64,000 nt of DNA from Calothrix sp. FI2-JRJ7. GTDB taxonomy: Bacteria > Cyanobacteriota > Cyanobacteriia > Cyanobacteriales > Nostocaceae. The notes beneath the pieces were generated by a model. That model had not been told where the DNA came from. It searched no databases and saw only the letters and a list, made by a program, of their open reading frames with translations. Shown in pieces: positions 1 to 64,000 of the stretch (the first letter of the stretch is position 1; each line of letters begins with the position of its first letter). The stretch lies in the NCBI GenBank assembly GCA_019359675.1, contig JAHHGX010000064.1, positions 62,001-126,000 of the forward strand. Direction: 5' to 3'. A program made the position numbers and the translations under genes.

Positions 1-11
1 GCCTTGCTGTA

Positions 12-1571
12 CTAGTGTTCGACAAACTCATTGAGGTAGGCTTTGAAATCTTCTAAGGAAACTTCCGTGGAGATAAATCCAATATAGTTGTCGGGTCTTA
101 GCATCACCTGAAAAGGTTGGTTTGTAGCGAATATCTCTACAACGCGCGGGTAAAGTGGAATAACGTTGAAGTCAATTAAATCCCCATATTCTTTTTCAAG
201 TTCCAACTTTAAACCTTGATAATTATGTTCCCCGTCTGAGAAAACAAGCAGGTGAAATTTGGGAGCGTGGAGTTTGTCATAAACACTGGCGCCATCAACT
301 AAAAAATACGGCATTCTATCTCCGGCTTTTACCTTAAAATCTTTATGGCCATGATGTTGGCTTAAAGAACTCTCACGGTAGTTAATTCCAATTTGAGAAA
401 CCATTGGAAACAGAAATTCTTTTGCGGCGCCGAACTTAGTCACAACACTAGCGAGACTGGGCAAAAGATTATCACGGAAAAATCTAAGATACCACTGGTC
501 ACCTGCTGCAACTTCAAAAAACTGGTCAGTTGTATGCAACAGTCGTTTCGCATTTGCCAAGCGCTCCTCATCATAACTTTGGAGTAGCGACACACCAGCA
601 TAACCTTTTAAAACAAATGCTAATTTCCAAGCTAAATTATAAGCGTCTTGGATACCCGTGTTCATTCCCTGTCCACCCGCAGGTGTATGGATATGTGCGG
701 CATCGCCAGCTAGAAAGCATCTACCAATAGAGAATGTATCAGCGTGACGTGTATGTACTTTGTAAGTCGAAAACCAGCGCACGTTCGTGATGTCGAGTGG
801 ACGCTGCACCAATTGTTTAACCTTGTTTTCGACTTCATCATATGTAACATCTTGATTAACTTGGTCGTTATATTCGGGCAGGTTGCCGACAAGTCTCCAG
901 TGCTTCTCACCTTGCATGGGAAACATTAGTGCAAACGAGTCATGTCCCAAGGCGCCGTAAAATGTACCCTCTTCAACTTGAAAATCCATCTCCACGTCCG
1001 CAACGTAAAATAAACGTGGGTGAGTCGAACCTTCAAAAGCGAGACCGAGGAAATGCCGCGTTGGACTACTGGCACCATCACAGCCTACCAGATATCGGGC
1101 TTCAACTGTTTGTTTGCCGTTTGCTGCTGATAGAACTACCCTCACACCGTCCGCATCTTGCGTTAAACTTTCCATTTCGGTCTGCCAATGAACGTCTTTC
1201 CCGTTTTGCTGAAGATGCTCATAAAGAAGACGCTCGTTTTTGCTTTGTTCAAAAATGAGGAAAAACGGAAACGGGCTAAGGCGCCCACCAAAGTCAGAAA
1301 AATCTAAGCGAGCGCTAATTTTACCGTCGTGCATCAAAGCGCCTTTCTGAACTATCTCACCACCAGAGACGGCTTTTTGCGCTAAATTAACCTGGTCATA
1401 AATCTCCAACGTGCGCGCGTGAACTATCACAGCTTTACTAAGTTCCGTAACACTTTCTTTTTTATCAAAGATTACAAAGTCAATGCCGTAATGTATTAAT
1501 TGTACAGCTAAAGATAAACCCGTTGGACCAGCGCCAACTATTATTACATCGGTTTTAGTTACTGTTTCCAT
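12..1571 (-). CDS. FAD-dependent aromatic-ring monooxygenase (PheA/TfdB family)
   Basis: A 519-residue flavoprotein. Seen: an N-terminal Rossmann motif GAGPTG at residues 13-18, the CDGA motif near residue 165, and the flavin-ribityl motif AGDAAHIHTPAGGQGMN starting near residue 288. These three define the p-hydroxybenzoate-hydroxylase fold; the remaining C-terminal part fits the thioredoxin-like domain of phenol hydroxylase/TfdB proteins. Members hydroxylate aromatic or polyketide substrates using NAD(P)H and oxygen, and some inactivate antibiotics. The ATG has an AGGAG box 8-9 bases upstream. Only 18 bases separate it from devA, so it is probably the last gene of the devBCA operon. The substrate cannot be read from the sequence; modification of a compound exported by the pump is an inference. 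Confidence 0.9.
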   Translation of the reverse strand: METVTKTDVIIVGAGPTGLSLAVQLIHYGIDFVIFDKKESVTELSKAVIVHARTLEIYDQVNLAQKAVSGGEIVQKGALMHDGKISARLDFSDFGGRLSPFPFFLIFEQSKNERLLYEHLQQNGKDVHWQTEMESLTQDADGVRVVLSAANGKQTVEARYLVGCDGASSPTRHFLGLAFEGSTHPRLFYVADVEMDFQVEEGTFYGALGHDSFALMFPMQGEKHWRLVGNLPEYNDQVNQDVTYDEVENKVKQLVQRPLDITNVRWFSTYKVHTRHADTFSIGRCFLAGDAAHIHTPAGGQGMNTGIQDAYNLAWKLAFVLKGYAGVSLLQSYDEERLANAKRLLHTTDQFFEVAAGDQWYLRFFRDNLLPSLASVVTKFGAAKEFLFPMVSQIGINYRESSLSQHHGHKDFKVKAGDRMPYFLVDGASVYDKLHAPKFHLLVFSDGEHNYQGLKLELEKEYGDLIDFNVIPLYPRVVEIFATNQPFQVMLRPDNYIGFISTEVSLEDFKAYLNEFVEH

Positions 1572-1589
1572 AACCTGAACTCCTGTTAT

Positions 1590-2336
1590 TCAACTGTGGA
1601 TAAACTTGTGCGATACTTCTTCATCGGAAGCATTAATACTACCATCGCTAACTAAACGACCATCTTCCATATAAACGATGCGGTCGGCAATATCTAAAAT
1701 TCGGTTATCGTGAGTTACTAATAAAATTGTGCAACCTTGTTCTTTGGCTAGTTTTTGCATCATCTCTACTACATCGCGTCCAGATTTTTTATCCAGCGCA
1801 GCAGTTGGTTCGTCAGCAAGGACAATTTTTGGTTGACTGACTAACGCGCGAGCAATTGCAACCCGTTGTTTTTGACCTCCTGATAAATCATCTGGGTAAT
1901 AATTAACACGTTGTCCTAGACCAACAAATTCTAGCATTTCTTTAGAACGAGCATTCATTACCTCTGGAGAGAGTTTTTTATGAACTTCTAAACCCATCCG
2001 CACATTTTGTAAAGCTGTTAAACTACCGTGTAAATTATGTGCTTGAAAGATATATCCGTTACTTCGCCGAGCTTCAGTTAATTGCTTTTCATTGGCACCG
2101 CAAAGTTCTTTTCCTAAAACTTGTAAACTACCTTCTTGAGTAGAACGTAAACTACCTGCCAAAGTTAGTAAGGTTGTTTTACCAGAACCAGAAGGACCAG
2201 TCATGATAATTATTTCACCTGCCTTTATTTCTAAATTAACATCAAATAAAACTTGCTTGCGAAGTTGTCCTTTACCAAAATAATGGTTAAGATTTTTAAC
2301 TGAAATAACAGACTCGTTGCTAAAATTAGTATGCAT
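1590..2336 (-). CDS. devA: DevA-type ABC exporter ATP-binding protein
   Basis: A 248-residue ATPase subunit. Seen: Walker A GPSGSGKT at residues 47-54, signature LSGGQKQRVAIARAL from residue 150, Walker B IVLADE near 170, and the switch histidine in VTHD. The order and type of neighbours (membrane-fusion protein, DevC permease, this ATPase) identify the DevBCA family, whose founding member exports heterocyst glycolipids in Anabaena; cyanobacteria carry several paralogues, some linked to drug or stress export. It begins 5 bases after the devC stop codon, so the two are probably co-transcribed. The symbol is a family name; which paralogue this is cannot be decided here. Confidence 0.93.
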   Translation of the reverse strand: MHTNFSNESVISVKNLNHYFGKGQLRKQVLFDVNLEIKAGEIIIMTGPSGSGKTTLLTLAGSLRSTQEGSLQVLGKELCGANEKQLTEARRSNGYIFQAHNLHGSLTALQNVRMGLEVHKKLSPEVMNARSKEMLEFVGLGQRVNYYPDDLSGGQKQRVAIARALVSQPKIVLADEPTAALDKKSGRDVVEMMQKLAKEQGCTILLVTHDNRILDIADRIVYMEDGRLVSDGSINASDEEVSHKFIHS

Positions 2337-2341
2337 AATAT

Positions 2342-7685: not shown

Positions 7686-8804
7686 TTGTCAGAACGCGCG
7701 TATTGGTTAGCTTGGTCGCAGATATCAGGTGTTGGCCCGGTATTATTACAACGGTTGTATCAACATTTTGGTTCTTTACAAGCTGCATGGTCCGTAAAGT
7801 CAAGTGAATTAGGCGCCGTAGAAGGTTTTGGTTTCAACACGATACAAAAAGTCGGCAAAGATCGAGCTAGTTTTAATAAAACTAATCATCCAGAAGAGTT
7901 CCTCGCAAAACACCTCAAAGAAAATCCTAATTTCTGGACACCTGTTGATGATGAGTACCCGCGTTTACTTATGGAAACTGCGAGTCCTCCACCTATTTTG
8001 TATTATTGCGGCGCCGTAGAACTAGAAGAGAACTTAGGGCAAAAAGGACTTATTGGAATTGTGGGGACACGGCAACCGAGTGAATATGGTATTCGCTGGA
8101 CTAGGCAAATTAGTACTGCGCTTGCAAAAAATGGGTTTACAGTTGTTTCGGGAATGGCAGAGGGAATTGATAGCGAAAGTCATGTTGCTGCATTGAAAGC
8201 AGACGGACGCACTATTGCTGTTTTTGGTACAGGTGTTGATGTTGTCTACCCTGCCAAAAATCAAAAACTTTATCAGCAAATATTAAAACAAGGAATAGTC
8301 GTCAGCGAGTATAAAAGCAAAACTCCACCTGACCGCACACATTTCCCTCGTCGCAACCGCATTATTGCTGGTTTGTGTCGCGCGGTTTTGGTACTTGAGG
8401 CGCCTATTAAATCTGGCGCCTTAATTACAGCAGACTACGCGAATGAGTTTGGACGTGATGTGTATGCACTGCCGGGTAGAGTGGATGATTATAATTCTCA
8501 AGGTTGTTTAAAACTGATTGCACAAGGCGCCACACCAATTCCAAGTGAGCTTGATGAGTTAATTAAAATGCTAGGAGCGATACCACAGTTTGATTCCATA
8601 CCTGCAACTGTAAAAACAGCTTTACAAGAGTTAGAACCTGAACTTCAAAAGGTTATCGAAACAGTTTCGATGGACTCTACTGCTTTTGATGTGATTATTC
8701 AACAAACTGGTATGGCGCCGGGTTTAGTTTCTAGTGCGCTGTTACAACTTGAGTTAATGGGTTTAATTGCACAGTTACCGGGGATGCGCTATCAAAGGTG
8801 TTAA
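7686..8804 (+). CDS. dprA: DNA processing protein DprA
   Basis: A 372-residue member of the DprA/Smf family, which binds incoming single-stranded DNA during natural transformation and loads RecA. Seen: an N-terminal SAM-like helical region, then the Rossmann-like DprA core with GIVGTRQPSEYG, SGMAEGIDSESHVAAL, AVFGTGVDVVYP, HFPRRNRIIAGL and the GALITADYANEFGRDVYALPG block, then a C-terminal winged-helix (DML1-like) segment. The frame starts with TTG at 7686, with GAGG and GGA purine stretches just before it; no in-frame ATG fits the conserved N-terminus. It implies a competence pathway in this organism. The length is normal for the family. Confidence 0.95.
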   Translation: MSERAYWLAWSQISGVGPVLLQRLYQHFGSLQAAWSVKSSELGAVEGFGFNTIQKVGKDRASFNKTNHPEEFLAKHLKENPNFWTPVDDEYPRLLMETASPPPILYYCGAVELEENLGQKGLIGIVGTRQPSEYGIRWTRQISTALAKNGFTVVSGMAEGIDSESHVAALKADGRTIAVFGTGVDVVYPAKNQKLYQQILKQGIVVSEYKSKTPPDRTHFPRRNRIIAGLCRAVLVLEAPIKSGALITADYANEFGRDVYALPGRVDDYNSQGCLKLIAQGATPIPSELDELIKMLGAIPQFDSIPATVKTALQELEPELQKVIETVSMDSTAFDVIIQQTGMAPGLVSSALLQLELMGLIAQLPGMRYQRC

Positions 8805-8832
8805 TTTACATATCAAAATTCTCAAGAGAGTT

Positions 8833-9682
8833 CTAAAATTGAATTGGAAGAATTAAACCAAAACCTACAGCAGTGTCATTATCAGCTCTGACTCTAAGAC
8901 TATCATAAGGCGATGTTCCGAGTCTGTTGGTCAGGTAAGTTTCTAATTGCATACCAGTAACGGCACCTGGATACCAACGTAAACCGACAGTCCAAGGTAT
9001 AACTTTTTGGAGGCTGTTACCGATAAAGGCATTGCCGTTGCCTAAAATATCTACACCAGCTTCAGCAATTACATCTAAATTTTTAAACACAGGAACTGAG
9101 GCGCCAAAGCTAAACCCACCAATCTCAAGTCCTGAGCGCTGCACAAATCCTAAAGTGGGAGTCAGCCACACAGCACTTCCACCTTTAAATTTATAGTGCA
9201 TTGGAGTAGACAGGGTGATGATAAGTAATTCTTCGTCCGTTTCATTACTAAACGCAAATCCACCTTTAGTCAAGCCTCGCTGCCTAAATTCGTTACGATT
9301 ATTATTAACAAAGTTAATTATTACGTTATTCGACCGTGCGATTGTTGCTGCTGCACTTAAAGTTACGGGGGCGCCCTCTGCTTGATTTAAAAAGCGTATT
9401 TTGCCGCTAAACCCTAATTGGGATTAGTCTACAGTTCCAGGAATGCTAGAGAGATACGCCCCAATTTCAAAATCATCTAAAAGTCCATAACGAATTCCTG
9501 TTAATAGTCCCTGTTGTCCTTCTTGTAAGCTGAAAAGTAATTGCTGATTAGGAATAGTGCCACCATCAAGCCAACCAAAACCAGCCGGAGTACTTGGAGT
9601 TGGTTGTACGCTTGAACTAAAATGTTGAGAATAACGACGATTGGCACCAGTGATTTTCTTTGCGGTTAGTTTTGTACACTAC
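8833..9682 (-). pseudogene. Decayed outer-membrane beta-barrel-like protein gene
   Basis: The last 146 codons (8833-9273) are open and end in a barrel-type C-terminus (GFGLILPIQF). The same frame continues upstream: it reads QHFSSSVQPTPSTPAGFGW, then a segment ending SSIPGTVD, a TAA at about 9422-9424, and resumes SQLGFSGKIRFLNQ. A single nonsense codon therefore interrupts an otherwise continuous protein. Further upstream the frame closes at a TAG near 9682 with no signal peptide, so the 5' end is missing too. Alternating hydrophobic/polar segments fit a beta-barrel or porin-like protein. It could be mistaken for a short intact gene starting at 9273. Confidence 0.75.
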
Positions 9683-9740
9683 ATATATGCTTCGGAAACA
9701 TAATGTACCTACTTCATGCGTTGATTATGATGTGTTAATT

Positions 9741-9841
9741 AGCAACGGATGCAACAGATGTAACGGATAAATTATTTATTACAAACAAAACTAGTTACAT
9801 AAAATCAACTATCCGCTACATCCGTTCATAATCCGTTGCCA
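9741..9841. repeat. Uninterrupted family B palindromic repeat
   Basis: A 101-base unit with ends GCAACGGATGCAACAGATG and CCGTTCATAATCCGTTGC that pair imperfectly, around an AT-rich centre with ACAAACAAAACTAGTTAC. Other copies: 5911-6060 (interrupted), 41983-42275 (interrupted) and a short version at 55565-55624. It lies between a pseudogene and the ParE-like gene. Confidence 0.8.
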
Positions 9842-9888
9842 ACTTATGGCGGGTTATATTGAAACGATTAAGTTGTCGCATCGGCGCC

Positions 9889-10182
9889 TTATGTATTAGT
9901 TTCTTCTTGTTCCAAGATAGTGGGAATATCGCGACTGCCATGAATGATACGTACTACTGTTAGTAATTCTTCTGTTGCCAAGTAAAAAATAAGATATTTT
10001 TCAAAACCTTTAATACCCGATTTACGCAAACCTTGTAAACGAGGATTATCTACATTATAAAGATTGCCCAAACCAGGATTTTGAGCTAGCTTGGCGATGG
10101 TGCTTCGTGCTGCATCAAAAAAATGTAAAGCTGCATCTGTATTATTTTGGGCAATGTAGTTAAATAAATCATCAATATCCAT
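9889..10182 (-). CDS. ParE/RelE-superfamily toxin-like protein, possibly truncated
   Basis: 97 residues. Seen: FFDAARSTIAKLAQNPGLG, LRKSGIKGFEKYLIFY and VVRIIHGSRDIPTIL, the hallmark blocks of ParE toxins, which poison DNA gyrase or act as ribosome-dependent nucleases. ParE proteins normally have about ten more residues ahead of the DIDDLFNYIAQ helix, forming the first beta strand; here an in-frame TGA lies just upstream of the ATG, so that strand is missing. No antitoxin gene is adjacent. It may be an inactive remnant or an orphan toxin. Confidence 0.8.
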   Translation of the reverse strand: MDIDDLFNYIAQNNTDAALHFFDAARSTIAKLAQNPGLGNLYNVDNPRLQGLRKSGIKGFEKYLIFYLATEELLTVVRIIHGSRDIPTILEQEETNT

Positions 10183-10246
10183 ATTTACTCAAACATATGC
10201 ACAAGCTTAACTCTAGCTTGATTGTAAATCTATCTGTGGCGCCGTA

Positions 10247-10825
10247 TTAGCTATTTACAAACCGGGATAAACTTAAGCTAAATCCGGGCAATAAATTTTC
10301 ACCTGATAATTGTGTCGGTAGATTCCGCACTTCTACATCTTGCTCTTGACGATAAATTTCCACTTGCTGCTGTTGGGGATTAATTAACCATGCCAATTGC
10401 ACCCCTGCATCCGTATATTCCTGCATCTTTTCACGCAGCGTTTCTAAATCATCTGTAGCTGACCTTAATTCAATCGCAAAGTCTGGTGCTATAGGGGGAA
10501 ATTTGCGTCTTTGTTCAGGAGTGAGTGCTTCCCAACGTTCCTTTTTAATCCAAGCAGCATCAGGAGAACGGTTTGCACCATTGGGTAACTTAAATACAGT
10601 AGAGGAACTGAAGGTATAACCGAGACCTGTCTGCCGATTCCAAATACCTAAATCGATAATAAAGTCAGCTTCTCGATTTCCGCTCTCGCCTCCAACTGGT
10701 GACATAATAATTAATTTTCCCTTGGCTGAGAGTTCAAACTGTAACTCGCGGTTATTTTGACATAACTGATAGAATTGTTCGTCACTTAAATGAACGGTGT
10801 CTAAACTTAACGTCAAAGGGGTCAT
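10247..10825 (-). CDS. Uma2-family (DUF820) putative restriction endonuclease-fold protein
   Basis: 192 residues. Seen: RSPDAAWIKKERWEALTPEQ, PDFAIELRSATDDL, then KMQEYTDAGVQLAWLINP, the order of the Uma2 PD-(D/E)xK nuclease fold (Asp, Glu and downstream Lys in place). Uma2 proteins are greatly expanded in cyanobacteria; their role is unsettled. It lies in tandem with the next paralogue on the same strand and faces a third on the other strand, which suggests local duplication or co-acquisition. Confidence 0.9.
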   Translation of the reverse strand: MTPLTLSLDTVHLSDEQFYQLCQNNRELQFELSAKGKLIIMSPVGGESGNREADFIIDLGIWNRQTGLGYTFSSSTVFKLPNGANRSPDAAWIKKERWEALTPEQRRKFPPIAPDFAIELRSATDDLETLREKMQEYTDAGVQLAWLINPQQQQVEIYRQEQDVEVRNLPTQLSGENLLPGFSLSLSRFVNS

Positions 10826-10873
10826 AAATCTACACCTAGCCGCAATAGCGCTGTATATTATATCATATATTTA

Positions 10874-11494
10874 TTACTTGCTCCAGACTCGGCGCATATT
10901 TAAAACAAAACCGGGTAACACATTCTCACCAGATAAGTGAGTAGGGTTCTCCAACACCTCTACCTCTAATCCCGGTCGATAAATTTCCACTTGTCGTTGC
11001 TGCGGGTTGAGTAACCATCCTAAGAGGGCGGCATTATCAATGTATTCTTTCATCTTTGCTTGCAATGGCTCAAGTCCATCTGAGCTTGACCTTAACTCAA
11101 CAACAAAGTCGGGACAGATATTTGCAAAAGTTCCTTTTTGTTCCGGAGTAAGTGCATCCCACCGTTCTTGACTAACCCAAGAAGCATCGGGAGAACGAGT
11201 GGCGCCATTGGGTAAAATAAACCCAGTAGAGGAGTCAAAAGCTTTACCCAAATCTTCGTTTTCTTCGTACCAGCGATACAGTTGTCCGGTAAGACTGAGG
11301 TTGCGTTCCCCAGTTTCCCAACCCGTTGGTGGGTTCACAATTAGCTCTCCTAGTGCGGTTCTTTCCAGTTTCAAGTCTCGGTTTACTGCTGCTAGAGCTG
11401 TAAACTGTTCTTGGGTAACGTACAACCCAATTGATGATGGTAACTCAATCGGCAAAGTTTGGTTTTTAGGACTAGCGGGTGTCTGCACCATCAA
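10874..11494 (-). CDS. Uma2-family (DUF820) putative restriction endonuclease-fold protein
   Basis: 206 residues, clearly paralogous to the neighbour at 10247-10825: it shares RSPDASWVSQERWDALTPEQ, CPDFVVELRSSSDGL and LLGWLLNPQQRQVEIYRP, the same catalytic-fold blocks. The C-terminus SGENVLPGFVLNMRRVW also matches the neighbour's SGENLLPGFSLSLSRF. A 48-base gap separates the pair, so they may be co-transcribed. An internal ATG one codon in is an equivalent start. Confidence 0.9.
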   Translation of the reverse strand: MMVQTPASPKNQTLPIELPSSIGLYVTQEQFTALAAVNRDLKLERTALGELIVNPPTGWETGERNLSLTGQLYRWYEENEDLGKAFDSSTGFILPNGATRSPDASWVSQERWDALTPEQKGTFANICPDFVVELRSSSDGLEPLQAKMKEYIDNAALLGWLLNPQQRQVEIYRPGLEVEVLENPTHLSGENVLPGFVLNMRRVWSK

Positions 11495-11689
11495 TACCTC
11501 TTATATAATGGGGGTTATCTTAAAGACGCTTACCCTATTAACTAACATATTCTACAAGCTATGAAGGCGCCGTCGCATTTCATTTATCTATTGCCGATAC
11601 CAAAATAGTTTGGTAACAGATAGTTTAATATTAAAGTGCGGCAGGAATCTATGTCATAAGTGGAAAAATTTGAGGAAAGCTCATTATAT

Positions 11690-12232
11690 ATGAAGTCACT
11701 AGCAACAACCGCTTTAGCCGAGTTTCTCTCTCAACCCAACATTGAGTCTTCCCCCGCATGGGAGTTAATTAACGGGCAAGCTCTACAAAAACCAATGCCA
11801 ACCCTTTTTCACTCGCGGCTACAACGCAATTTGGTAAATTACGTAAATCTTCATACTGAGCAGTTTGAAGCTGTGCAAGAACTGCGCTGTATTGTACCTC
11901 CCTACTCTCCAGTACCAGATATTTCTGTCGTTACCAGCGAGCGTCTTGGCGATGAAGATGGACCGCTACAGGGGGCGCCGGAATGGTTAATTGAAATTCT
12001 CTCTCCTGATCAAAGCACTTTAGACGTGCAAAACAAAATTCTCCACTGCCTCAGCAATGGAACACAATTAGCTTGGCTAATAGACATAACTCGACAACAG
12101 GTTTGGGTATGGTTTGGAGATAACCTACCCCAAGTTTTTTCTACTGAAGACATTTTACCAACTTTGGGCGATTTACCAGAGCTTACGGTCAAGGCAGTAA
12201 TCGCTATGACTCGCAAGCAAAGCCGACAATAA
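11690..12232 (+). CDS. Uma2-family (DUF820) putative restriction endonuclease-fold protein
   Basis: About 180 residues, a more distant Uma2 subfamily from the two on the minus strand: LINGQALQKPMPTLFHSRLQ, PVPDISVVTSERL, APEWLIEILSPDQS and LDVQNKILHCLSNGTQLAWL give the family's Asp, Glu and Lys positions. The frame also allows a GTG start at 11660; the ATG at 11690 with GAGGAAAG about 12 bases upstream seems better. It is transcribed divergently from the other two. Confidence 0.87.
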   Translation: MKSLATTALAEFLSQPNIESSPAWELINGQALQKPMPTLFHSRLQRNLVNYVNLHTEQFEAVQELRCIVPPYSPVPDISVVTSERLGDEDGPLQGAPEWLIEILSPDQSTLDVQNKILHCLSNGTQLAWLIDITRQQVWVWFGDNLPQVFSTEDILPTLGDLPELTVKAVIAMTRKQSRQ

Positions 12233-12342
12233 AAACTGCTCCTATGCTCCTGTGTGTTTAGCATTTGGGAAACCGTTGCTCGGTCAGAGTAAATAATTCG
12301 CTTTCTTATACTCTATTTATCAATAATGAAAGGTAATTTTTG

Positions 12343-12729
12343 TTATAAATTATTTGTTTTATTAGAAATCACCTCCGTGAGTTGGTCGGACAAAGTAAAT
12401 GGGTCATAGGGTTTAGTAATTAATGCTGCCAATTTTAACTGGCTAAATTGACGCTGTTCGGCAGGTTGTGCTTTTGCTGTCAAAAAAACTACGGGAATAT
12501 GCTGAATTTCTGGGTCAGATTGTATTTTTTTTAATGTAGTTAACCCATCCATATCTGGCATCATTACATCTAAAAGAATTACATCAGGTTGTGAACTAGC
12601 AGCTAGCACTAAACCTTCTTTACCCGAACTAGCTGTAAAAACTTCCCAATCTCCAGTTATTTCTAAACACACTTGAGTTGTTTCTCGAATACCCTGCTCA
12701 TCATCTATTATTAATACACGCTTAGTCAT
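12343..12729 (-). CDS. CheY-like single-domain response regulator
   Basis: 128 residues forming one receiver domain: acidic pair DD at residues 9-10, phospho-acceptor Asp54 in VILLDVMMPDMDG, Thr in FLTAKA and Lys in ITKPYDP. There is no output domain, so it acts by protein interaction or as a phosphorelay intermediate. It starts 2 bases after the end of the upstream sensor kinase and is the third gene of a compact minus-strand operon with that kinase and an OmpR/HPt regulator. Confidence 0.93.
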   Translation of the reverse strand: MTKRVLIIDDEQGIRETTQVCLEITGDWEVFTASSGKEGLVLAASSQPDVILLDVMMPDMDGLTTLKKIQSDPEIQHIPVVFLTAKAQPAEQRQFSQLKLAALITKPYDPFTLSDQLTEVISNKTNNL

Positions 12730-12731
12730 AA

Positions 12732-15218
12732 TTATGCTCCTCGCAATAAAGGTAATGTAAAATAAAATGTACTACCTACTTCTAATACACTTTCTGCCCA
12801 AATGGCGCCTCCATGTTGCTGTACAATACTTCGACATATAGCAAGTCCCAAACCCGTCCCTCCTTGGTTACGAGAATTTGATGCATCGACTTGCTGAAAA
12901 CGGTCAAATATAGTTTCTAATTTATCTTCCGGAATTCCTCTCCCTTCATCTTTGACTTTAAATAATATATGAGGAGTCATCTGAATTTCCGCGCTTAACC
13001 AAACAGTACTACCAGCACCTGAAAACTTAATTGCATTACTAATTAAATTAGTAAGCGTTTGAACTATTTTATCAGGGTCTGCCCAAAGTTGAGCATCTAG
13101 TCGCGCCACACAAAGAGTAATTTCGGCTTTTTCTGCCATCGCGCGCATTTCATCAACAGCTTGAGTCATTAGGTCAGCAGCATTACATATTTGAAAATGC
13201 ATTGAAACTTTGCCGGAGTTGATGCGCTCGATATCAAGGATATCGTTGATAAGACGCACCAAGCGGTTTGTATTTTCAAACGCAATTTCTAACATACGCT
13301 GTTTTTTAACTGGTTGGCTATCAAGCGAATTATTTGATAGTAAACCTAAAGCGCTGCATATCGAAGTTAAAGGTGTTCGCAGTTCGTGACTAACAACAGA
13401 AACAAACTCATCCTTCATGCGCTCAATTATTTGCCGTTCGGTTATATCTTTGAAAATAACTACGGCGCCGATAATTTGACCTTGTTCTTGGATTGGTGTT
13501 GAAATATACTCAACAGGAAATTTTGTGCCATCTCGACGATAGTATATATCATCGCTAATGTTTTGGACTTTGCCATATTCTAAAGTCGCACGTATTGGGT
13601 TCTCTGACCATTTGTAGGCAGTATTATCAGATTTAGTGTGTTTTATAACAGACTCTAGAAAATGCTGACCTAGGGTAATTAGTTCTTCGACTTGATAACC
13701 CAACATCCTGGCGCCAGCAGAATTGATAAAAGTGAGTTTTGCGTCGGCATCTAAACCGTAAATTCCCTCACCTGCTGAGTTTAAAATTAACTCATTATAC
13801 CGACTTAAACGTTCTACAGAAGCTTGTGCTTGTTGACGTTCTTTAACTTCATGTTTCAACTCGGTATTGGCTTGCTGTAACTCAGCGGTACGTTCAATTA
13901 CTCGTGTTTCTAACTCGGCATTTAATGCAGAAATTTTGCTTTCAAACAGCTTTCTTTGTTCAATATCTCTATGTAAATTATAATTAGCAACATGTATTTT
14001 TTGATATAATTGATATTGCTGAATCGCCATTGCAAAGTGGCTACCCAAAGAATTAGCTAAATCAATTTCCGGTGCCGTCCAAGGGTTGACTTGAGCTTTT
14101 TTTAACTCTTGCCATGCTTCAAACGATTGTACCGGACGTAAGTGTCGCGCTTCCAGAGGGTCTCGGCGCCGTGCCCATAAAGTTTCTGTATCAATAGAGC
14201 GACGGAAAATACTCAAATAACCCACAATTGAAGTATGGTACTCCAAACGAACAATTAATAAGCTCCGAATTTCAGCTTTATTAAAATCATTCGCTAAATA
14301 TTCTGGTAAAGAGTACACAAGCAAATCATTAAATACCCAAATATGGCTCAGTTCAGGTAATGTTGATTGAGTAGTTAACCAATCGCAATAATCTTCATTC
14401 AATATACTCCCAGACCCACAACTATATATTTGTGCTTCTTCGTTTGGTTTTTGTGGCGCAATATAAACTCTACCACCGCTAGCTTGTAAACCCGACACAG
14501 CTAACTCTAAAGCTTCTTGCAACTGCATTTCGGTCATCGAATGTAACAGTTTAGCAACGCGGTTAATTGTAGCTTCTTGTTGTGCTAAAATTCGAGTTTG
14601 TTGAAGTAAGGTTGACTGTCCCACCGCAATAGATAATTGGTCTGCTACAAGTTGCAATACTTGTAATTCTCGTTCGGTAACATTTCGCGGTACGCTATGA
14701 TGAGAAACTAATAATCCCCACAACTGTTGACGGTGTAAAATTGGCACAACTACAGAAGAATTTACACCCATTGATATCAAATATTCAATATGGCAAGGGT
14801 CTACGTGACGAAACCAAATATCATTATTATCACTGTCAGGATATAAAAATCGACTTAACCCTATAGTTTGAGCAGGCACATCTACAATTGTACGCTGGCG
14901 AACTTTTTGAAACATTTCACGCGCTTCAAGTGGAATATCCTCTGCGGGGAAATTTTGCCCTAATAGTGAGGGTAAACACTCGTTAACAGACTCAGCGACA
15001 ACTTCACCGCTACCATCTGTATCAAATTTATATACCTTAACCCGGTCAGTTTCTAAAAAAACCCGCACTTCATTAACTGTGACAGACAAAATATCAGATA
15101 TTTCTGCATATTGACGAACACGGTTCATTAATTTATGCAGCAATACTTCCAGTGAGTCTACAGGGTTTATTGACTCTGTTGCCGGATATTCATGGTTTGT
15201 AAAAGTATCATTTAACAC
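12732..15218 (-). CDS. Sensor histidine kinase with phytochrome/cyanobacteriochrome-type GAF domain
   Basis: 828 residues. Order seen: a GAF domain (about 25-200) of phytochrome type with DRVKVYKF, GQNFPAEDIP and DPCHIEYLISMGVNSSVVVP, in which Cys142-His143 sit where bilin-binding GAF domains carry their chromophore Cys; a second GAF (about 225-410); a coiled coil; a PAS domain (about 465-590); HisKA with phospho-acceptor His611 in SVVSHELRTPL; and an HATPase ending GTGLGLAICRSIVQQHGG. It overlaps the upstream regulator by 11 bases and the CheY-like gene follows 2 bases later, so the three proteins probably form one phosphorelay. Light sensing is plausible but unproven. Confidence 0.93.
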   Translation of the reverse strand: MLNDTFTNHEYPATESINPVDSLEVLLHKLMNRVRQYAEISDILSVTVNEVRVFLETDRVKVYKFDTDGSGEVVAESVNECLPSLLGQNFPAEDIPLEAREMFQKVRQRTIVDVPAQTIGLSRFLYPDSDNNDIWFRHVDPCHIEYLISMGVNSSVVVPILHRQQLWGLLVSHHSVPRNVTERELQVLQLVADQLSIAVGQSTLLQQTRILAQQEATINRVAKLLHSMTEMQLQEALELAVSGLQASGGRVYIAPQKPNEEAQIYSCGSGSILNEDYCDWLTTQSTLPELSHIWVFNDLLVYSLPEYLANDFNKAEIRSLLIVRLEYHTSIVGYLSIFRRSIDTETLWARRRDPLEARHLRPVQSFEAWQELKKAQVNPWTAPEIDLANSLGSHFAMAIQQYQLYQKIHVANYNLHRDIEQRKLFESKISALNAELETRVIERTAELQQANTELKHEVKERQQAQASVERLSRYNELILNSAGEGIYGLDADAKLTFINSAGARMLGYQVEELITLGQHFLESVIKHTKSDNTAYKWSENPIRATLEYGKVQNISDDIYYRRDGTKFPVEYISTPIQEQGQIIGAVVIFKDITERQIIERMKDEFVSVVSHELRTPLTSICSALGLLSNNSLDSQPVKKQRMLEIAFENTNRLVRLINDILDIERINSGKVSMHFQICNAADLMTQAVDEMRAMAEKAEITLCVARLDAQLWADPDKIVQTLTNLISNAIKFSGAGSTVWLSAEIQMTPHILFKVKDEGRGIPEDKLETIFDRFQQVDASNSRNQGGTGLGLAICRSIVQQHGGAIWAESVLEVGSTFYFTLPLLRGA

Positions 15219-47812: not shown

Positions 47813-47820
47813 TAAATCCC

Positions 47821-47886: not shown

Positions 47887-47896
47887 TTGATGAGTT

Positions 47897-48634: not shown

Positions 48635-48647
48635 AATTTTTTACATG

Positions 48648-48672: not shown

Positions 48673-48679
48673 CCCTTGT

Positions 48680-50201: not shown

Positions 50202-50204
50202 AAA

Positions 50205-50268: not shown

Positions 50269-50297
50269 ATCAATTTTAAGCACCATTCACCTGTATT

Positions 50298-50360: not shown

Positions 50361-50627
50361 TTAAATTCTTCCAAGGTTGTGTAAACCTAAAATTACACCA
50401 ATTCCCAGGATATGACCAAAGCTGGTTGTCGCTAAAATAGCAGGCAAGCCAAAACCACCAAAGAAATTAGACGCAGGCACAGCAGGTTCAGCATTCGGAT
50501 ACTTAATAGTCGATTTACCGAACGCAATAGCCAAGATATTACAAACAACCATTATCGCTCCAACGGTTGGACTCCACTCTAACGGCGCCGTTACTGCTGT
50601 AACAGCCAGTAAAGTTGATGTTAACAA
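50361..50627 (-). CDS. psaK: Photosystem I subunit PsaK
   Basis: 88 residues, the usual PsaK length. Seen: two membrane helices (about 20-38 and 60-85) with the conserved WSPTVGAIMVVCNILAIAFG, a loop with IKYPNAEPAVP, and FGLPAILATTSFGHILGIGV. PsaK lies at the edge of photosystem I and binds chlorophyll and carotenoid; some paralogues support state transitions. The frame starts at TTG (50627) with AAGGAG 9 bases upstream and no in-frame ATG before it, so the TTG is the likely start. Confidence 0.93.
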   Translation of the reverse strand: MLTSTLLAVTAVTAPLEWSPTVGAIMVVCNILAIAFGKSTIKYPNAEPAVPASNFFGGFGLPAILATTSFGHILGIGVILGLHNLGRI

Positions 50628-50884
50628 GCGATTTGCTCCTTGATTTAATTAAATGTTTTACTGGGTTGAAAATATTACTCCTAAAAATTTTTAGCAAAAA
50701 ACCTTTGCCTAGCGCTAACTTTCGTATCACTAATTCATATTTCGTTGTAATATTTCATCACATTTTTGTAAAAATTATTTATTTTTATTTACATTATCTC
50801 AATATGAAGTTTTGACAGTGAGGTAGCGCAGGCATCATTGAAGAGAATACAGTGTAAAAAAGAGCTATTTTGCACTAACCCACC

Positions 50885-52561
50885 ATGAAACGTAGATGGA
50901 AGTCTTTGTTCCTTTCTCTCAGCTGGGTATTTCTCTCAGTAGGGACATCTATTTTTGTTATCGTGACGCAGCCTTTAATTACACCAGCACAACAGCCTGC
51001 GTCTGTTGACCAGTATAATAAAACACACATACAAACCAAAGAAGATAAAAAACCTGAATTAAAAAAACCCGAAGAAGAAGAAAAACCAACACCCGAAGAA
51101 ATAGCTCGTCAACAAAAGTTGATAGAAGGCGATAAATTATACCTAGCAGGCAATGTAGCCGAAGCTGAGAAAATTTATCGCTCTCTCAAACAACCATTCA
51201 AGCTAGCAGCTAATAACAGTAACGAACAACTCCAACCTGCAATTGCCGATGCAGCACAATTAACACCAGCAGGAAGAGTATACTGGCGTGAAGCTGAAGC
51301 GGGAATTATTGGCAATCTACAAACTCGCATTTTGGTTCCTTTAGATTTATTAGTTCAACAGGTACCTCAGTTTATACCCGGACATATTAAGTATGCTGAA
51401 TATCTGAAGAAGTACGGAGATGAGAAAAAAGCGTTACAAGTATTAGAACGCGCAGCTACACTGTATCCAAATCAACCAGACTTAGTACGAGCGCGCGTCG
51501 CTGCGTTAGGGGATGCCGAAAAGTGGATGGAAGCGTCGCTAGCTGCACGTCAATATGCAATTCTCAACCCTAATGACCCCTTAATGCCAGAATTTACCAA
51601 GTTGGCAGATGATAATTTAAAGCGTTACAAATCTCATATTCGTGGTGAAATTCGCGGTAATGCCATAGCCAATATTATTACAGGCGCCATAGGTTATGCC
51701 GTTACAGGCAGTCTACTAGGCCCATTTTCAGCGCTTGACTCAACGGTAATGTTGCTGCAAGGAGAAGAATCTATTGGTGAAAGCGTAGCTAAACAAGCGA
51801 AAAAACAACTTGATTTGGTCAAAGACGAAACCGTTAACGCATACGTTAATGATATTGGTCAAAAACTTGCCCAAGTTGCTGGACGCAATGAATTTAAATA
51901 TGAGTTTTTCGTAATTCCCGAACCTGATTTAAATGCATTCGCTTTACCTGGTGGTAAAGTGTTTATAAATGCAGGCGCGATTGAAAAAGCAAAATCAGAA
52001 GCTGAATTAGCAGGGTTAATTGGTCATGAATTAGCCCACGTCGTACTATCCCACGGATTTCAACTAGTAACTCAAGGTAATTTAATTTCAAATATTACTC
52101 AGTATTTACCGTTAGGTGGAACCGTTGGACAGCTATTTGGACTGTCTTATAGCCGTGATATGGAACGTCAAGCCGATGTTTTGGGCACACGCTTACTCGT
52201 AACAACTGGGTATGCAGCAGATGGGTTAAGAAACCTTATGGTAACGCTCAAAGAACAAATGAAAAATAAAAACGCACCACCAACTTGGGCATCATCGCAC
52301 CCAGGTGGTAACGAACGGGTGGGTTACTTGGAAGAGTTAATAACACGCAATAGTTACAATCGTTATGCTTATGAGGGAGTTGCCAAGCATGAAGAAATTC
52401 GCTCAAAAGTTAAAACTATATTAAAAGAGGTAAAAGAGTGTCGCGAAGACAAAAAGAAATGCCCTGATGATAAGAAAGATGAAACAGAGCGCAAAAAGCC
52501 AGAACAACCTCCAAACCCCACCCAGCAAACAGAACAACAACCGAATGAATCTAAAAAATAA
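50885..52561 (+). CDS. M48-family metalloprotease with TPR-like region
   Basis: 558 residues. Seen: a signal peptide or anchor (about 8-35), a Lys/Glu/Pro-rich linker, TPR-like helices (about 130-230), the metalloprotease domain with zinc-binding GHELAHVVLSHGF (HExxH) and the third ligand in DMERQADVLGTRLL, and a C-terminal Lys/Glu/Gln/Pro-rich tail. It resembles BepA/YfgC-type periplasmic M48 proteases that maintain outer-membrane proteins. The helical TPR segment precedes rather than follows the protease domain. It is divergent from psaK and probably monocistronic. Confidence 0.92.
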   Translation: MKRRWKSLFLSLSWVFLSVGTSIFVIVTQPLITPAQQPASVDQYNKTHIQTKEDKKPELKKPEEEEKPTPEEIARQQKLIEGDKLYLAGNVAEAEKIYRSLKQPFKLAANNSNEQLQPAIADAAQLTPAGRVYWREAEAGIIGNLQTRILVPLDLLVQQVPQFIPGHIKYAEYLKKYGDEKKALQVLERAATLYPNQPDLVRARVAALGDAEKWMEASLAARQYAILNPNDPLMPEFTKLADDNLKRYKSHIRGEIRGNAIANIITGAIGYAVTGSLLGPFSALDSTVMLLQGEESIGESVAKQAKKQLDLVKDETVNAYVNDIGQKLAQVAGRNEFKYEFFVIPEPDLNAFALPGGKVFINAGAIEKAKSEAELAGLIGHELAHVVLSHGFQLVTQGNLISNITQYLPLGGTVGQLFGLSYSRDMERQADVLGTRLLVTTGYAADGLRNLMVTLKEQMKNKNAPPTWASSHPGGNERVGYLEELITRNSYNRYAYEGVAKHEEIRSKVKTILKEVKECREDKKKCPDDKKDETERKKPEQPPNPTQQTEQQPNESKK

Positions 52562-52697
52562 TCGAAAATAATCATCCTATGGTTATAAAGTTTTGATGAC
52601 ACATAACAAAAACATGTGGAAATCAACGCTATTGACAGACACATCAATGCAAGAGGGCAAGTTATAATTTTTTAGCGGACGACTATTGTAAACATTT

Positions 52698-53018
52698 ATG
52701 ACTACCCCTCTTGTACAAGCTTTTTTTGTAGGCAGAGCTGTCGCTGAGATTCTTAGCGAACGGCTTGAACACACTGTTACTGATACCCTATCGCAACTCG
52801 GTAAGTTAGATGCTGAGTTACGCGAGCAAATGCGCTCGTTTACGGATGAAGTTATGGTTCGTGCCCAAAGCGCATCAAGCGCAGCAGGTGCTGGTTTTAC
52901 TTCTCCAGGCACTGGTGGACAATCAGCATCAGTTGATACACAAGCAATGATTGATGATTTACGCGCCGAAATTGCCACACTACGCACTGAACTCCAACGT
53001 CATCGCGTTAGTGGTTGA
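52698..53018 (+). CDS. Short conserved cyanobacterial protein (DUF6825-like)
   Basis: 106 residues: MTTPLVQAFFVGRAVAEILS, then a helical stretch with LGKLDAELREQMRSF, a Gly/Ser/Ala-rich linker, and a C-terminal amphipathic helix IDDLRAEIATLRTELQ. I recognise this pattern from conserved cyanobacterial/plastid proteins of unknown function. It lies 105 bases upstream of an ABC1 kinase gene; a hairpin GGTGGC-TTCG-GCCACC (53025-53040) follows. Confidence 0.8.
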   Translation: MTTPLVQAFFVGRAVAEILSERLEHTVTDTLSQLGKLDAELREQMRSFTDEVMVRAQSASSAAGAGFTSPGTGGQSASVDTQAMIDDLRAEIATLRTELQRHRVSG

Positions 53019-53024
53019 CGGTAG

Positions 53025-53040
53025 GGTGGCTTCGGCCACC
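53025..53040 (+). terminator. TTCG-loop hairpin after the 106-residue gene
   Basis: The perfect hairpin GGTGGC-TTCG-GCCACC sits 6 bases after the stop codon and is extended by GTA ends. UUCG loops give very stable RNA hairpins; there is only a weak T run (ATTTT) after it. Confidence 0.5.
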
Positions 53041-53123
53041 GTACAAATTTTACAAACAAGCAAAAAATAACAAAGTATTTTCTCCCTTTAAGATTCAGTT
53101 AATCCCAGCGGTATTTAAAGCAT

Positions 53124-54806
53124 ATGGAAAAAGGATATTCGGATAAGGCATACCGTTGGAATCGCGAGAACTACTCTAGCAGGCGCCGCTTTATAGATAT
53201 TTGGGGGTTTGTGCTGCTATTGATGTATCGCCTTTGGCTGTATAACAAATCTTGGAGTTATCCAGGAGGAGTTAGCGACGCAAAGCAAGCTGCAAGGCGC
53301 CGGACTTTAGCGGTTTGGATTCGCAACACATTACTCGATTTAGGCCCAACTTTTATTAAGGTTGGACAATTATTTTCGACGCGCGCGGATATATTTCCTG
53401 CTGAATATGTCGAAGAACTAACAAAGTTACAAGACCGTGTTCCAGCTTTTAGCTACGAGCAGGTAGAGTCTACTATCGAGAAAGAACTAGGTAAAAAAAT
53501 TCCTGAACTTTTCCATAGCTTTGAACCCGTACCTTTAGCAGCAGCTTCTTTAGGTCAAGTTCATAAAGCGGTTTTACACTCCGGTGAAGCTGTTGTCGTC
53601 AAAGTTCAGCGTCCCGGACTTAAAAAGCTTTTTGAAATTGATTTAAGAATTCTCAAAGGTATCTCGCGCTATTTTCAAAACCATCCTAAATGGGGAAAAG
53701 GACGCGACTGGATGGGAATTTACGAAGAGTGCTGCAAAATTCTTTGGGAAGAAATCGATTATTTGAGCGAAGGTCGCAATGCCGACGCTTTTCGTCGTAA
53801 TTTTCGCGCTTATGACTGGGTAAAAGTTCCCCGCGTTTACTGGCGTTACGCCTCTTCTCGTGTACTCACACTCGAATATGCTCCTGGTATCAAAATTAGC
53901 CAGTACGAAGCGTTAGAAGCGGCTGGTTTAGATAGAAAAGTTTTGGCTCGCCAAGGCGCCGAAGCGTATTTACACCAGTTACTTGATAATGGTTTTTTCC
54001 ACGCCGACCCACACCCAGGTAATATTGCCGTTAGTCCCGAAGGCGCCTTAATTTTTTATGACTTCGGTATGATGGGACGTATCAAGTCGAACGTGCGTGA
54101 AGGGTTAATGGAGACCTTATTTGGCATCGCCTCTAAAGATGGTGATAGAGTTGTGCAGTCACTAATTGATTTAGGCGCCATAGCACCAACCGACGACATG
54201 GGTCCAGTCAGACGTTCGGTACAGTACATGCTCGATCACTTTATGGATAAACCATTTGAAAACCAATCGGTTGCCTCCATCAGTGACGACTTGTACGAAA
54301 TCGCTTATAATCAGCCATTTAGATTTCCTGCAACATTTACCTTCGTCATGCGCGCGTTTTCGACGCTAGAAGGTGTTGGTAAAGGACTTGACCCAGAGTT
54401 CAGCTTTATGGAAATCGCTAAACCCTACGCAATGCAGCTTATGACTAATACGAATGGTGAGGGCAATAGTTTGCTCAACGAACTAGGCCGTCAAGCAGTC
54501 CAAGTTAGTAGTACAGCTTTGGGACTACCGCGCCGTCTCGAAGATACTCTTGAAAAACTAGAACGCGGTGATGTTAGAATGCGTGTTCGCGCTATAGAAA
54601 CCGAGCGCTTATTAAGGCGGCAAAGTAACATCCAATTAACTACCACTTACGCGGTGCTTATAGGTACTTTCACCCTTTCAGCCTCGATTTTATTGGTTAA
54701 AAATTATATATGGGCAGCCGTATTTGTAGCTTTTGTCGCAGTAAGCGTATCATGGCTGTTAATTAGGCTGATTTCACGCCTTGACCGTTATGACCGTATG
54801 TATTAA
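53124..54806 (+). CDS. ABC1/UbiB-family atypical kinase
   Basis: 560 residues of the ABC1K/AarF family. Seen: the KxGQ motif IKVGQLFSTRADIFPAEYV, the Ala-rich nucleotide loop PLAAASLGQVHKAV, the catalytic-core motif VVVKVQRPG, DNGFFHADPHPGNIAVSPEG and YDFGMMG, and two C-terminal membrane segments. ABC1 kinases in cyanobacteria and plastids regulate prenyl-quinone and tocopherol metabolism and plastoglobule functions. The PP2C phosphatase gene starts 29 bases downstream, so a functional link is plausible. Confidence 0.93.
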   Translation: MEKGYSDKAYRWNRENYSSRRRFIDIWGFVLLLMYRLWLYNKSWSYPGGVSDAKQAARRRTLAVWIRNTLLDLGPTFIKVGQLFSTRADIFPAEYVEELTKLQDRVPAFSYEQVESTIEKELGKKIPELFHSFEPVPLAAASLGQVHKAVLHSGEAVVVKVQRPGLKKLFEIDLRILKGISRYFQNHPKWGKGRDWMGIYEECCKILWEEIDYLSEGRNADAFRRNFRAYDWVKVPRVYWRYASSRVLTLEYAPGIKISQYEALEAAGLDRKVLARQGAEAYLHQLLDNGFFHADPHPGNIAVSPEGALIFYDFGMMGRIKSNVREGLMETLFGIASKDGDRVVQSLIDLGAIAPTDDMGPVRRSVQYMLDHFMDKPFENQSVASISDDLYEIAYNQPFRFPATFTFVMRAFSTLEGVGKGLDPEFSFMEIAKPYAMQLMTNTNGEGNSLLNELGRQAVQVSSTALGLPRRLEDTLEKLERGDVRMRVRAIETERLLRRQSNIQLTTTYAVLIGTFTLSASILLVKNYIWAAVFVAFVAVSVSWLLIRLISRLDRYDRMY

Positions 54807-54835
54807 ATGATTGTTTCCGATACGCCTAAAAAAAT

Positions 54836-55561
54836 ATGAAAATAAACTATATAGGAGCTAGCGACCCCGGACTTATTCGATTTTCTAATCAGGATGCTTA
54901 TTATACTGACCCAGAAGGACGATTTTTCGTGGTTGCCGATGGGATGGGTGGTCATGCGGGTGGTGAAGAAGCCAGTCGTATCGCCACCCAAGAAATTCAG
55001 GCTTATTTAGTCGCAAACTGGGATTCACAAATTCCTTCCGAAAAATTGCTCGAAGAAGCATTACTTCAAGCAAACGAAGCCATCATACGTGACCAACAAA
55101 GCCATCCAGAACGTGCCGATATGGGCACAACTGCCGTCGTCATACTGTTGCGCGACCCCGAATCACCCTTATGCGCGCACGTCGGTGACTCCAGATTATA
55201 CCGTTGGCGAGAACTCAAACTCGAACAAATTACAGAAGATCATACTTGGGTAGCACGTGCGTTAAAAGTTGGTGACATTTCCCCCGATGAAGCGCGTATT
55301 CACCCCTTCCGTCACGTACTATCACGTTGCCTAGGACGCGAAGATTTACAAGGAGTTGACATTCAACCTCTGAGTTTAAAACCAGGAGACCGCTTACTCC
55401 TATGTAGTGACGGTTTAACCGAAGAACTAGTCGATGAAAAAATCGCCAGTTACCTGCAAGAAACTTCAATGCTCGACAAAGCAGCTTTCGCGCTGATTGA
55501 AGGCGCCAAAGAACAAGGTGGACACGATAATATTACTGTTGTACTAGTAGCGCTTGATTAA
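54836..55561 (+). CDS. PP2C-family Ser/Thr protein phosphatase
   Basis: 241 residues, a complete bacterial PP2C. Seen: NQDAYYT and FFVVADGMGGHAGGEEAS with the metal-binding Asp-Gly, MGTTAVVILL, AHVGDSRLYRWRELKL, LLLCSDGLTEELVD and GGHDNITVVLV, covering the conserved metal and phosphate residues. It reverses Ser/Thr phosphorylation; the window holds at least two Hanks-type kinases. It is 29 bases after an ABC1 kinase gene, and a family B short repeat follows its stop codon. Confidence 0.93.
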   Translation: MKINYIGASDPGLIRFSNQDAYYTDPEGRFFVVADGMGGHAGGEEASRIATQEIQAYLVANWDSQIPSEKLLEEALLQANEAIIRDQQSHPERADMGTTAVVILLRDPESPLCAHVGDSRLYRWRELKLEQITEDHTWVARALKVGDISPDEARIHPFRHVLSRCLGREDLQGVDIQPLSLKPGDRLLLCSDGLTEELVDEKIASYLQETSMLDKAAFALIEGAKEQGGHDNITVVLVALD

Positions 55562-63243: not shown

Positions 63244-63251
63244 GTTTGTTG

Positions 63252-63350
63252 GGGCGGGGGGGCGGGTTTACAGATATGCTAATGATAGCGGAAGTTTTTG
63301 GGTTAACCCGCCCTTACAGACCCGCCCTTACAGTTACACCGTCCTTACAG
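63252..63350. repeat. G-run/ACCCGCCCTTACAG tandem repeat between purN and anmK
   Basis: A GGCGGGGGGGCGGG stretch is followed by two exact copies of ACCCGCCCTTACAG (63306-63319, 63320-63333) and a degenerate third copy that includes the purN stop codon (TTA at 63345-63347). Confidence 0.7.
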
Positions 63351-63998
63351 TTGCCCTGCCCCTAGAGCGAGGGATATTGCAGCAGGGAGGATTCGGTGTT
63401 CTTCAATTTGAATTCGTTGATGAAGCGTTTCGGTTGTATCGTCTGGCAAGATAGGTACTGCTGCCTGCATCAAAATTGGCCCATCGTCAACTTCCAAGCG
63501 TACTATGTGTACTGTACAGCCAGCTATTTTGACTCCGCTCGCTAAAGCTTGTTCGATGGCACGGGCGCCTTTAAAGCTGGGTAATAAGCTGGGATGGATA
63601 TTTATAATTTTGTCAGTGTATGCCTGAATTAGTACTTGGGTAACAATTCGCATCCAGCCAGCCATTACCACCCATTCAACATTGTACTTTTGTAGAGTGC
63701 GTACAATTTCCGCGTCAAAATCTTCGCGACTTTTGTAGTCACGGTGATTTAACAGTACTGCTGGAATATCCCAATTTGCCGCGCGTGCTGCTGCATATGC
63801 ATCTGGGTTATTGTAAATTAAAACCTGAATTTGGGCGTTGAGTTGTCCATCTTTTATTGCCTGGGCAACTGCTTCAAAGTTACTGCCGCTACCCGAAGCT
63901 AAAATTCCCAGATGAAAGTTGGCGCCACTAGGTGAAATGCTGGTAATACTGGGAGAAATCAAACTATTTGTCGTCATAGCAATTGAGTAGGACACCAT
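63345..63998 (-). CDS. purN: Phosphoribosylglycinamide formyltransferase (GAR transformylase)
   Basis: 217 residues. Seen: the N-terminal LGILASGSGSNFEAVAQAI, the folate-site VVMAGWMRIVTQVLI, the catalytic HPSLLPSFKGARAIEQAL with Asn-His-Asp triad elements (INIHPS; VDDGP), and GCTVHIV. It transfers the formyl group from 10-formyl-THF in purine synthesis. The start at 63998 (MVSYSIAMTTNS) or the ATG at 63977 gives the family's usual length; the gene reaches almost to the window end and appears complete. Confidence 0.94.
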   Translation of the reverse strand: MVSYSIAMTTNSLISPSITSISPSGANFHLGILASGSGSNFEAVAQAIKDGQLNAQIQVLIYNNPDAYAAARAANWDIPAVLLNHRDYKSREDFDAEIVRTLQKYNVEWVVMAGWMRIVTQVLIQAYTDKIINIHPSLLPSFKGARAIEQALASGVKIAGCTVHIVRLEVDDGPILMQAAVPILPDDTTETLHQRIQIEEHRILPAAISLALGAGQL

Positions 63999-64000
63999 AA

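Follow-up and report, generated by a model that had tools for sequence, protein, structure and literature searches.

In most cyanobacterial genomes one palindrome recurs about once every kilobase, for reasons that have been an open question since the 1990s. In most cyanobacteria this is HIP1 (GCGATCGC), a GC-rich highly iterated palindrome (HIP) that is spread over the whole genome and is tied to DNA methyltransferases. The closest described systems are the alternate HIPs. According to Elhai 2015 (PMC4390886), GGCGCC takes this role in two Calothrix strains, PCC 7103 and D253, the latter represented by fragments; in PCC 7103 HIP1 is near absent, GATC is at 16% of expectation, and there are a potentially active GATC endonuclease and two GRCGYC methyltransferases. 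The same text offers a model of mismatch repair directed by G-meC, and describes the exceptional HIPs as sporadic, not falling into clades. Here we analyse GGCGCC in Calothrix sp. FI2-JRJ7, both in a window of 64 kb (the whole stretch from position 62,001 to 126,000 of contig JAHHGX010000064.1) and in the genome at large.

The exchange of HIP1 for GGCGCC in FI2-JRJ7 is confirmed as real and genome-wide, and it was already described for the close relative PCC 7103; the initial annotation, made from the letters of the window, had suspected that it might be known for relatives. As in PCC 7103 and D253, HIP1 is near absent, GATC is depleted, and GRCGYC-family 5-methylcytosine (m5C) methyltransferases are present together with a GATC endonuclease. 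The motif resembles HIP1 in its density of about one per kb, its genome-wide spread and its tie to methyltransferases, and differs from it in sequence, in the methyltransferase concerned and in having no GATC core. What our analysis adds is that the trait is common to seven genomes, that it appears to be linked to an absent HindVP endonuclease, and that the substitutions at the motif carry a probable footprint of methylation at the inner cytosine. It also provides evidence that argues against a need for two methyltransferase copies, one genome having a single full-length copy, and against saturation, of which there is no signal. No further report of GGCGCC as a HIP was among the literature matches listed, whose coverage excludes most subscription papers.

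GGCGCC in the window and the genome

The hexamer occurs 117 times in the window, in genes and in the gaps between them (the first at 288, 426 and 951, the last at 63564 and 63921), where 3.8 copies are expected from base composition and 6.3 from a first-order Markov model; a maximal-order model gives 59, its own 5-mers being inflated by the motif. The count by eye in the initial annotation (about 117) was exact, and the positions it quoted are correct or one to two bases off (17844, 30495 and 62128 in place of 17845, 30496 and 62130). HIP1 is missing from the window, as claimed there. GATC is found 10 times against 151 expected; the annotation gave about ten against roughly 200. The 5.4-kb kinase gene that it described as free of GATC is presumably the longest open reading frame (ORF) of the window (Table 1).

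The genome of FI2-JRJ7 (8,663,394 bases in 91 contigs) holds 14,889 GGCGCC, or 1,719 per Mb, inside the alternate-HIP range of about 500–2500 per Mb, and 31 copies of HIP1 in 8.66 Mb. The count of GGCGCC is far from expectation across the genome, and no equal stock of GCGATCGC lies elsewhere in it; these counts support the proposal that the lineage has swapped HIP1 for GGCGCC. HIP1 was counted genome-wide in FI2-JRJ7 alone, and in loci and samples of its relatives.

A 644-kb sample of the same genome was made up of the window, 400 kb from contig C20 and the initial 180 kb of C79. In it GGCGCC reaches 19.7 times its first-order expectation (1,108 against 56). It tops all arrangements of three G and three C, the next being GCGCCG (296), CGGCGC (267) and CGCGCG (253), the first two of which can overlap GGCGCC. 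The reversed motif CCGCGG (eight copies in the genome) was tried as a control and rejected, since it is avoided in its turn, in a genome that encodes an Eco29kI-type system.

The methyltransferase and the genomes that carry it

How widely is the exchange shared? Relatives were found by a pattern scan with the methyltransferases of FI2-JRJ7 over one genome per species (84,980 species), and the best 80 of 185 relatives were kept. Six genomes besides FI2-JRJ7 are rich in the motif, given here with the identity of their methyltransferase and their genome-wide GGCGCC: Dulcicalothrix desertica PCC 7102 (97%; 19,393), Calothrix PCC 7103 (97%; 17,704), PCC 7716 (92%; 20,380), NIES-4105 (81%; 18,131), HK-06 (82%; 15,449) and the metagenome-assembled genome (MAG) C42_A2020_038 (83%; 7,475). 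All seven thus lie between 7,475 and 20,380, while each of the nine other counted genomes fetched via the same methyltransferase has 1–277. The loci around the enzyme (20.9 kb, one of 16.8 kb) hold 16–41 GGCGCC and 0–1 HIP1 in the rich genomes; GGCGCC is missing from those of Calothrix CSU_2_0 and C. elsteri, which have 22 and 27 HIP1, respectively. An alignment of 134 kb from one region puts the identity of PCC 7103 and FI2-JRJ7 at 94.8%. GGCGCC is the alternative HIP of a Dulcicalothrix/Calothrix PCC 7103 group of at least seven genomes, including the published PCC 7103, and being common to seven genomes it is not confined to isolated strains.

Within this group PCC 7103 (G292) stands apart in a 200-kb sample at C7. 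GGCGCC, at 1,420 per Mb, is less frequent than in the sampled relatives, GATC, at 550 per Mb, is more frequent, and some HIP1 is present (35 per Mb), as though the swap were in decay in this genome.

FI2-JRJ7 has nine matches to PF00145, including two pieces of one gene and one below the cut-off. Two of the enzymes, encoded on contigs C79 and C38 (Table 1), are close kin (61% identical) and are HindVP-family m5C methyltransferases, with all five motifs searched for; their GRCGYC specificity is predicted from the partner family and from the avoidance of such sites in relatives. Five of the six named relatives share the neighbourhood of the C79 type, whose seven rows group together in the tree (support 100/98); the C38 type groups apart from it, with a plasmid copy of NIES-4105 among its members. 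Two C38-type regions carry 73 (L111, plasmid 2 of NIES-4105) and 61 (L119, PCC 7716) GGCGCC in 20.9 kb, about twice the averages of their genomes.

In 10 of the 22 loci examined the methyltransferase lies directly behind a gene of family F1, which in the three members scanned is a HindVP endonuclease (PF09519); its target we take to be GRCGYC. Summed over these ten loci there is one GRCGYC site against about 76 expected. The C79-type enzyme belongs to the C5-methyltransferase family (PF00145) and is 69–72% identical to enzymes adjoining PF09519 in other Calothrix (L050, L051), and GRCGYC is its predicted target. The resemblance to a HindVP-type restriction–modification system ends there, as no endonuclease was found and one presumed target site is hugely abundant instead of avoided. 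None of the seven group genomes gave a match to PF09519 (E up to 0.001), and in all of them the methyltransferase is unpartnered. This search took in 64 of the 67 genomes of the order (besides FI2-JRJ7) with a methyltransferase match at E up to 1e-50, three with fragments being left out.

Over 80 methyltransferase genomes the median number of GGCGCC per Mb is 1.0 with a full or split endonuclease (39 genomes), 7.8 with fragments (13), 33 without endonuclease outside the group (21) and 1,545 in the group (7), as medians uncorrected for kinship among genomes that are not independent. Two-piece matches (G235, G237, G278, G298) and matches with a stop inside (G210, G266, G270, G304, and also G278) were counted as full endonucleases; L141 (wrong frame), L059, L070, L081, G059 and G136 were left out. 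Lack of the endonuclease accompanies the end of GGCGCC avoidance, and alone it makes no HIP. Nor is a second copy of the methyltransferase needed, because PCC 7102 has one full-length A1-type copy where FI2-JRJ7 has two. C42_A2020_038 also has one copy, but it is a MAG and the match includes a stop.

The initial annotation had further proposed a changed set of methyltransferases, and this is borne out by the unpartnered enzyme of the putative HindVP/GRCGYC family and by the presence of a complete DpnII-type GATC system. A D12 methyltransferase followed by a DpnII endonuclease (Table 1) is kept in all seven group genomes, with endonucleases 88–97% identical to that of FI2-JRJ7. GATC is found at 311 per Mb in FI2-JRJ7 against 2,329 expected, a depletion that we ascribe to restriction avoidance under this system. 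It had also been argued that the two scarcities fit together because HIP1 contains GATC. The DpnII-type system agrees with this, but three genomes (G297, G298 and G299) keep HIP1 beside a similar system (63–67% identical), with 22, 27 and 6 copies in sampled loci of about 20 kb and a milder depletion of GATC. The system can therefore account for the loss of HIP1 in part at best.

Substitutions at the motif and their explanation

In the 644-kb sample 16 of the 18 one-base neighbours of GGCGCC are found at 0.18–0.81 of expectation. The remaining two, GGTGCC (0.93) and GGCACC (1.10), are not depleted; in a HIP1 relative (G265) they stand at 0.20 and 0.53. Very-short-patch repair as the maker of GGCGCC was rejected, these two being the least depleted near-misses; no search for Vsr was made.

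Substitutions were followed in blocks with identities of 93–96%, in which C79 was aligned with PCC 7102, PCC 7103 and PCC 7716, C20 with PCC 7102 and PCC 7103, and the 64-kb window with PCC 7102, PCC 7103, PCC 7716 and HK-06, giving 556 consensus GGCGCC hexamer windows. The single losses comprise 105 changes of C3 to T or G4 to A and 40 of all other kinds, 44 hexamer windows with several changes being set aside. As a measure of protection this event count was discarded because it overstates: 27 control hexamers averaged 0.51, not 1. For the four positions taken as unmethylated the value is 0.158; scaled by the control mean it becomes about 0.31, where the lowest control stands at 0.32. A codon-matched count was used instead, comparing synonymous changes in the same codon with neighbour codons unchanged. 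At positions 5 and 6 there are 16 changes against 48.4 expected, a suppression of about three-fold. Positions 3 and 4 have 58 changes against 67.4 expected, of which 57 are of C-to-T type, compared with 150 of 210 in the controls, and C-to-T in a GCG context is found at 13.2% in the motif and 7.4% outside it. Such a signature would be expected if the inner C were 5-methylcytosine and the site were protected as well; the inner C is most likely methylated by the unpartnered HindVP-family enzyme. The footprint lets the methylated base be predicted from sequence alone.

The other GRCGYC forms are scarce, with GACGCC at 0.34, GGCGTC at 0.26 and GACGTC at 0.07 of expectation. The preference for GGCGCC is what either the G-meC rule of Elhai or a narrower specificity of the methyltransferase would predict; methylation alone provides no explanation. 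By codon-matched count, near-miss codons became the motif in 5 of 14 cases against 0.56 expected. The 1,105 gaps between sites in 644 kb follow a near-exponential distribution (coefficient of variation 1.01), short chiefly of gaps below 50 bases. Grouped in quartiles by distance to the nearest site, 57, 51, 33 and 48 of 139 sites each show any change, with no steady fall. Random spacing and distance-independent change argue for a force that acts site by site and without density feedback, and against saturation near one per kb.

We hold with moderate confidence an explanation in which an unpartnered methyltransferase, methylation-biased repair and the loss of HIP1 are joined. The HindVP-family m5C methyltransferase, having no endonuclease, would methylate the inner C of GGCGCC, and sites could accumulate because no endonuclease punishes them. 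A weak directional force, autonomous to each site, would then favour GGCGCC over the hexamers one base away from it. This force may be a repair biased by methylation, in which the methylated motif strand is the template against a near-miss strand, at replication or between chromosome copies, and from which C-to-T at the methylated C itself would escape. HIP1 would have been lost, probably helped by the DpnII-type system that depletes GATC. We infer methylation in vivo, the bias of repair and this order of events from the comparisons above; biased repair would account for the link to the methyltransferase, the protection of sites, the escape of C-to-T changes and a motif that changes along with the methyltransferase.

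Several points weigh against this explanation. An unpartnered methyltransferase is not sufficient, since most endonuclease-lacking genomes have no such HIP: 20 of the 21 such genomes outside the group do not exceed about 132 GGCGCC per Mb. Nor does methylation alone favour a site, given that GACGTC is so rare though it is a presumed target. Polarised losses in the C79 block number 61 against 16 gains, and single-step losses over all blocks 145 against 11 single-step gains, a polarisation in which rapid reversal could mislead parsimony. Because losses exceed gains, net decay is possible and equilibrium is unsupported; PCC 7103, with its lower density, contributes most losses (27 of the 61 in C79 and 62 of the 145 in all blocks). 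The group itself is delimited by the methyltransferase tree and the conserved neighbourhood, not by a species tree. Finally, selection for a functional site would leave the same patterns.

Such selection, in which methylation would belong to the function (a strand signal, a recombination or segregation site, or protein binding), is a possible alternative to which we give limited credence. The depletion of near-misses and the protection of synonymous bases at positions 5 and 6 would follow from it, the density of about 1.1–1.7 per kb resembles that of HIP1, and hypermutability of m5C under uniform selection yields the same spectrum. Yet weak selection would have to act on as many as about 20,000 sites in each genome, the spacing is random, remote sites are preserved no better than close ones, and a function tied to a sequence would not easily switch from HIP1 to GGCGCC.

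The full model of Elhai seems to us doubtful as a whole. It holds that a second copy of the GRCGYC methyltransferase triggers G-meC-directed mismatch repair, by which GGCGCC is made until saturation at about one per kb. The inner-C footprint, the preference for GGCGCC over GACGCC, GGCGTC and GACGTC, and the two copies in FI2-JRJ7 all agree with it, but the single A1-type copy of PCC 7102 weakens the part that concerns the second copy, and the lack of any sign of density dependence weakens that of saturation. Moreover, such HIPs are called sporadic by Elhai, where here one is common to seven genomes.

The explanation by methylation-biased repair that we prefer has an extension, which we think unlikely, in which the motif spreads itself: in a polyploid cyanobacterium, heteroduplex repair between chromosome copies would copy GGCGCC, marked by the unpartnered m5C methyltransferase, over unmethylated near-misses. 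If true, HIPs would be the footprint of methylation-directed biased conversion, would change with the methylation repertoire and would need no function. Elhai 2015 (PMC4390886) briefly touches on polyploidy and on gene conversion that might begin at HIP1, and in that passage proposes no self-spreading drive. The group is in effect a natural swap experiment, with another palindrome, a named candidate methyltransferase, relatives about 95% identical and outgroups with the restriction system intact. The view that composition or codon usage, through preferred Gly-Ala codons, makes GGCGCC abundant is refuted by the counts: in the first 180 kb of C79 (295 sites) 136 of the 244 within ORFs (mechanical calls of at least 100 amino acids) are indeed in the GGC-GCC frame, but density is also high in the other two frames (58 and 50) and in non-ORF DNA (51 in about 40 kb), hexamers that rearrange the same letters are far rarer, and at positions 5 and 6 change is about three times as frequent when the same codons lie outside the motif.

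Further systems, genomes and motifs

Table 1. Location of the features discussed in the text
Feature	Location	Strand	Remarks
m5C methyltransferase, FI2-JRJ7, outside the window	C79:135478-136428	-	
Second methyltransferase, FI2-JRJ7, outside the window	C38:10020-10934	-	
D12 methyltransferase, FI2-JRJ7, outside the window	C85:81207-82040 (match)	+	followed by DpnII endonuclease (PF04556)
1811-amino-acid ORF, longest in the window	16938..22373	+	zero GATC; five GGCGCC at 17844, 18200, 18399, 20646, 20781
The only ten GATC of the window	7860..55241		starts 7860, 12008, 28043, 28626, 36350, 38567, 40376, 43313, 54234, 55238
m5C methyltransferase with Eco29kI-type endonuclease (PF09517)	G000:C61 (L009:1462-3345)		
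Truncated m5C methyltransferase gene	G000:C89 (L011:1483-1902)		139-amino-acid frame
Dispersed repeat of about 90 bases	window 38006-38086		15-nucleotide inverted ends

The Eco29kI-type system, whose target is presumably CCGCGG, has its counterpart in the counts of that hexamer, of which each of the seven group genomes has 1–8 copies. The truncated methyltransferase gene on contig C89 extends to 281 amino acids in PCC 7103. As a lost CGATCG enzyme it was rejected, the frame being open over 413 amino acids in PCC 7102 and HK-06; moreover, no relative (E up to 1e-20) turned up in 11 of the 24 genomes searched, including ones with HIP1 in their loci.

Among 291 genomes of the order several in other families looked high in GGCGCC (G059, G116, G170, G008 and several others). 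On sampling, G170 (120 kb) and G008 (20 kb) proved to be HIP1/CGATCG genomes of about 50% GC, with GGCGCC at about 1.5 times expectation (68 against 44 and 12 against 8), and G116 (20 kb, 63% GC) has GGCGCC under expectation (18 against 28) and 17 HIP1; other moderately high genomes (e.g. G037, G060, G193, G136 and G194) lie outside this sampling. G059, from another family of the order, has a different candidate alternate HIP. In 113 kb (loci L222, L223, L258–L260 and L302) CGGCGCCG is found 156 times against 5.9 expected, CAGCGCCG 51 against 2.9 and CGGCGCTG 66 against 2.9, with no GCGATCGC. A HindVP-family methyltransferase is present in G059, with no match to PF09519. Two congeners differ in HIP1, with 15 copies in 20 kb of G036 and none in 20 kb of G007.

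GGCC is scarce in the window (13 against 124 expected), and numerous palindromes, among them TTCGAA, GCATGC, GTGCAC and CCATGG, are nearly absent too, as might be expected from several restriction systems. CGCGCG (253 against 54 in the 644-kb sample) and GCGCGC (177 against 70) are over-represented, mostly as single hexamers rather than long runs, and the three other group genomes sampled have the same excess. The dispersed repeat lies in a part of the window (37990–38120) free of GGCGCC, and many places in relatives match it.

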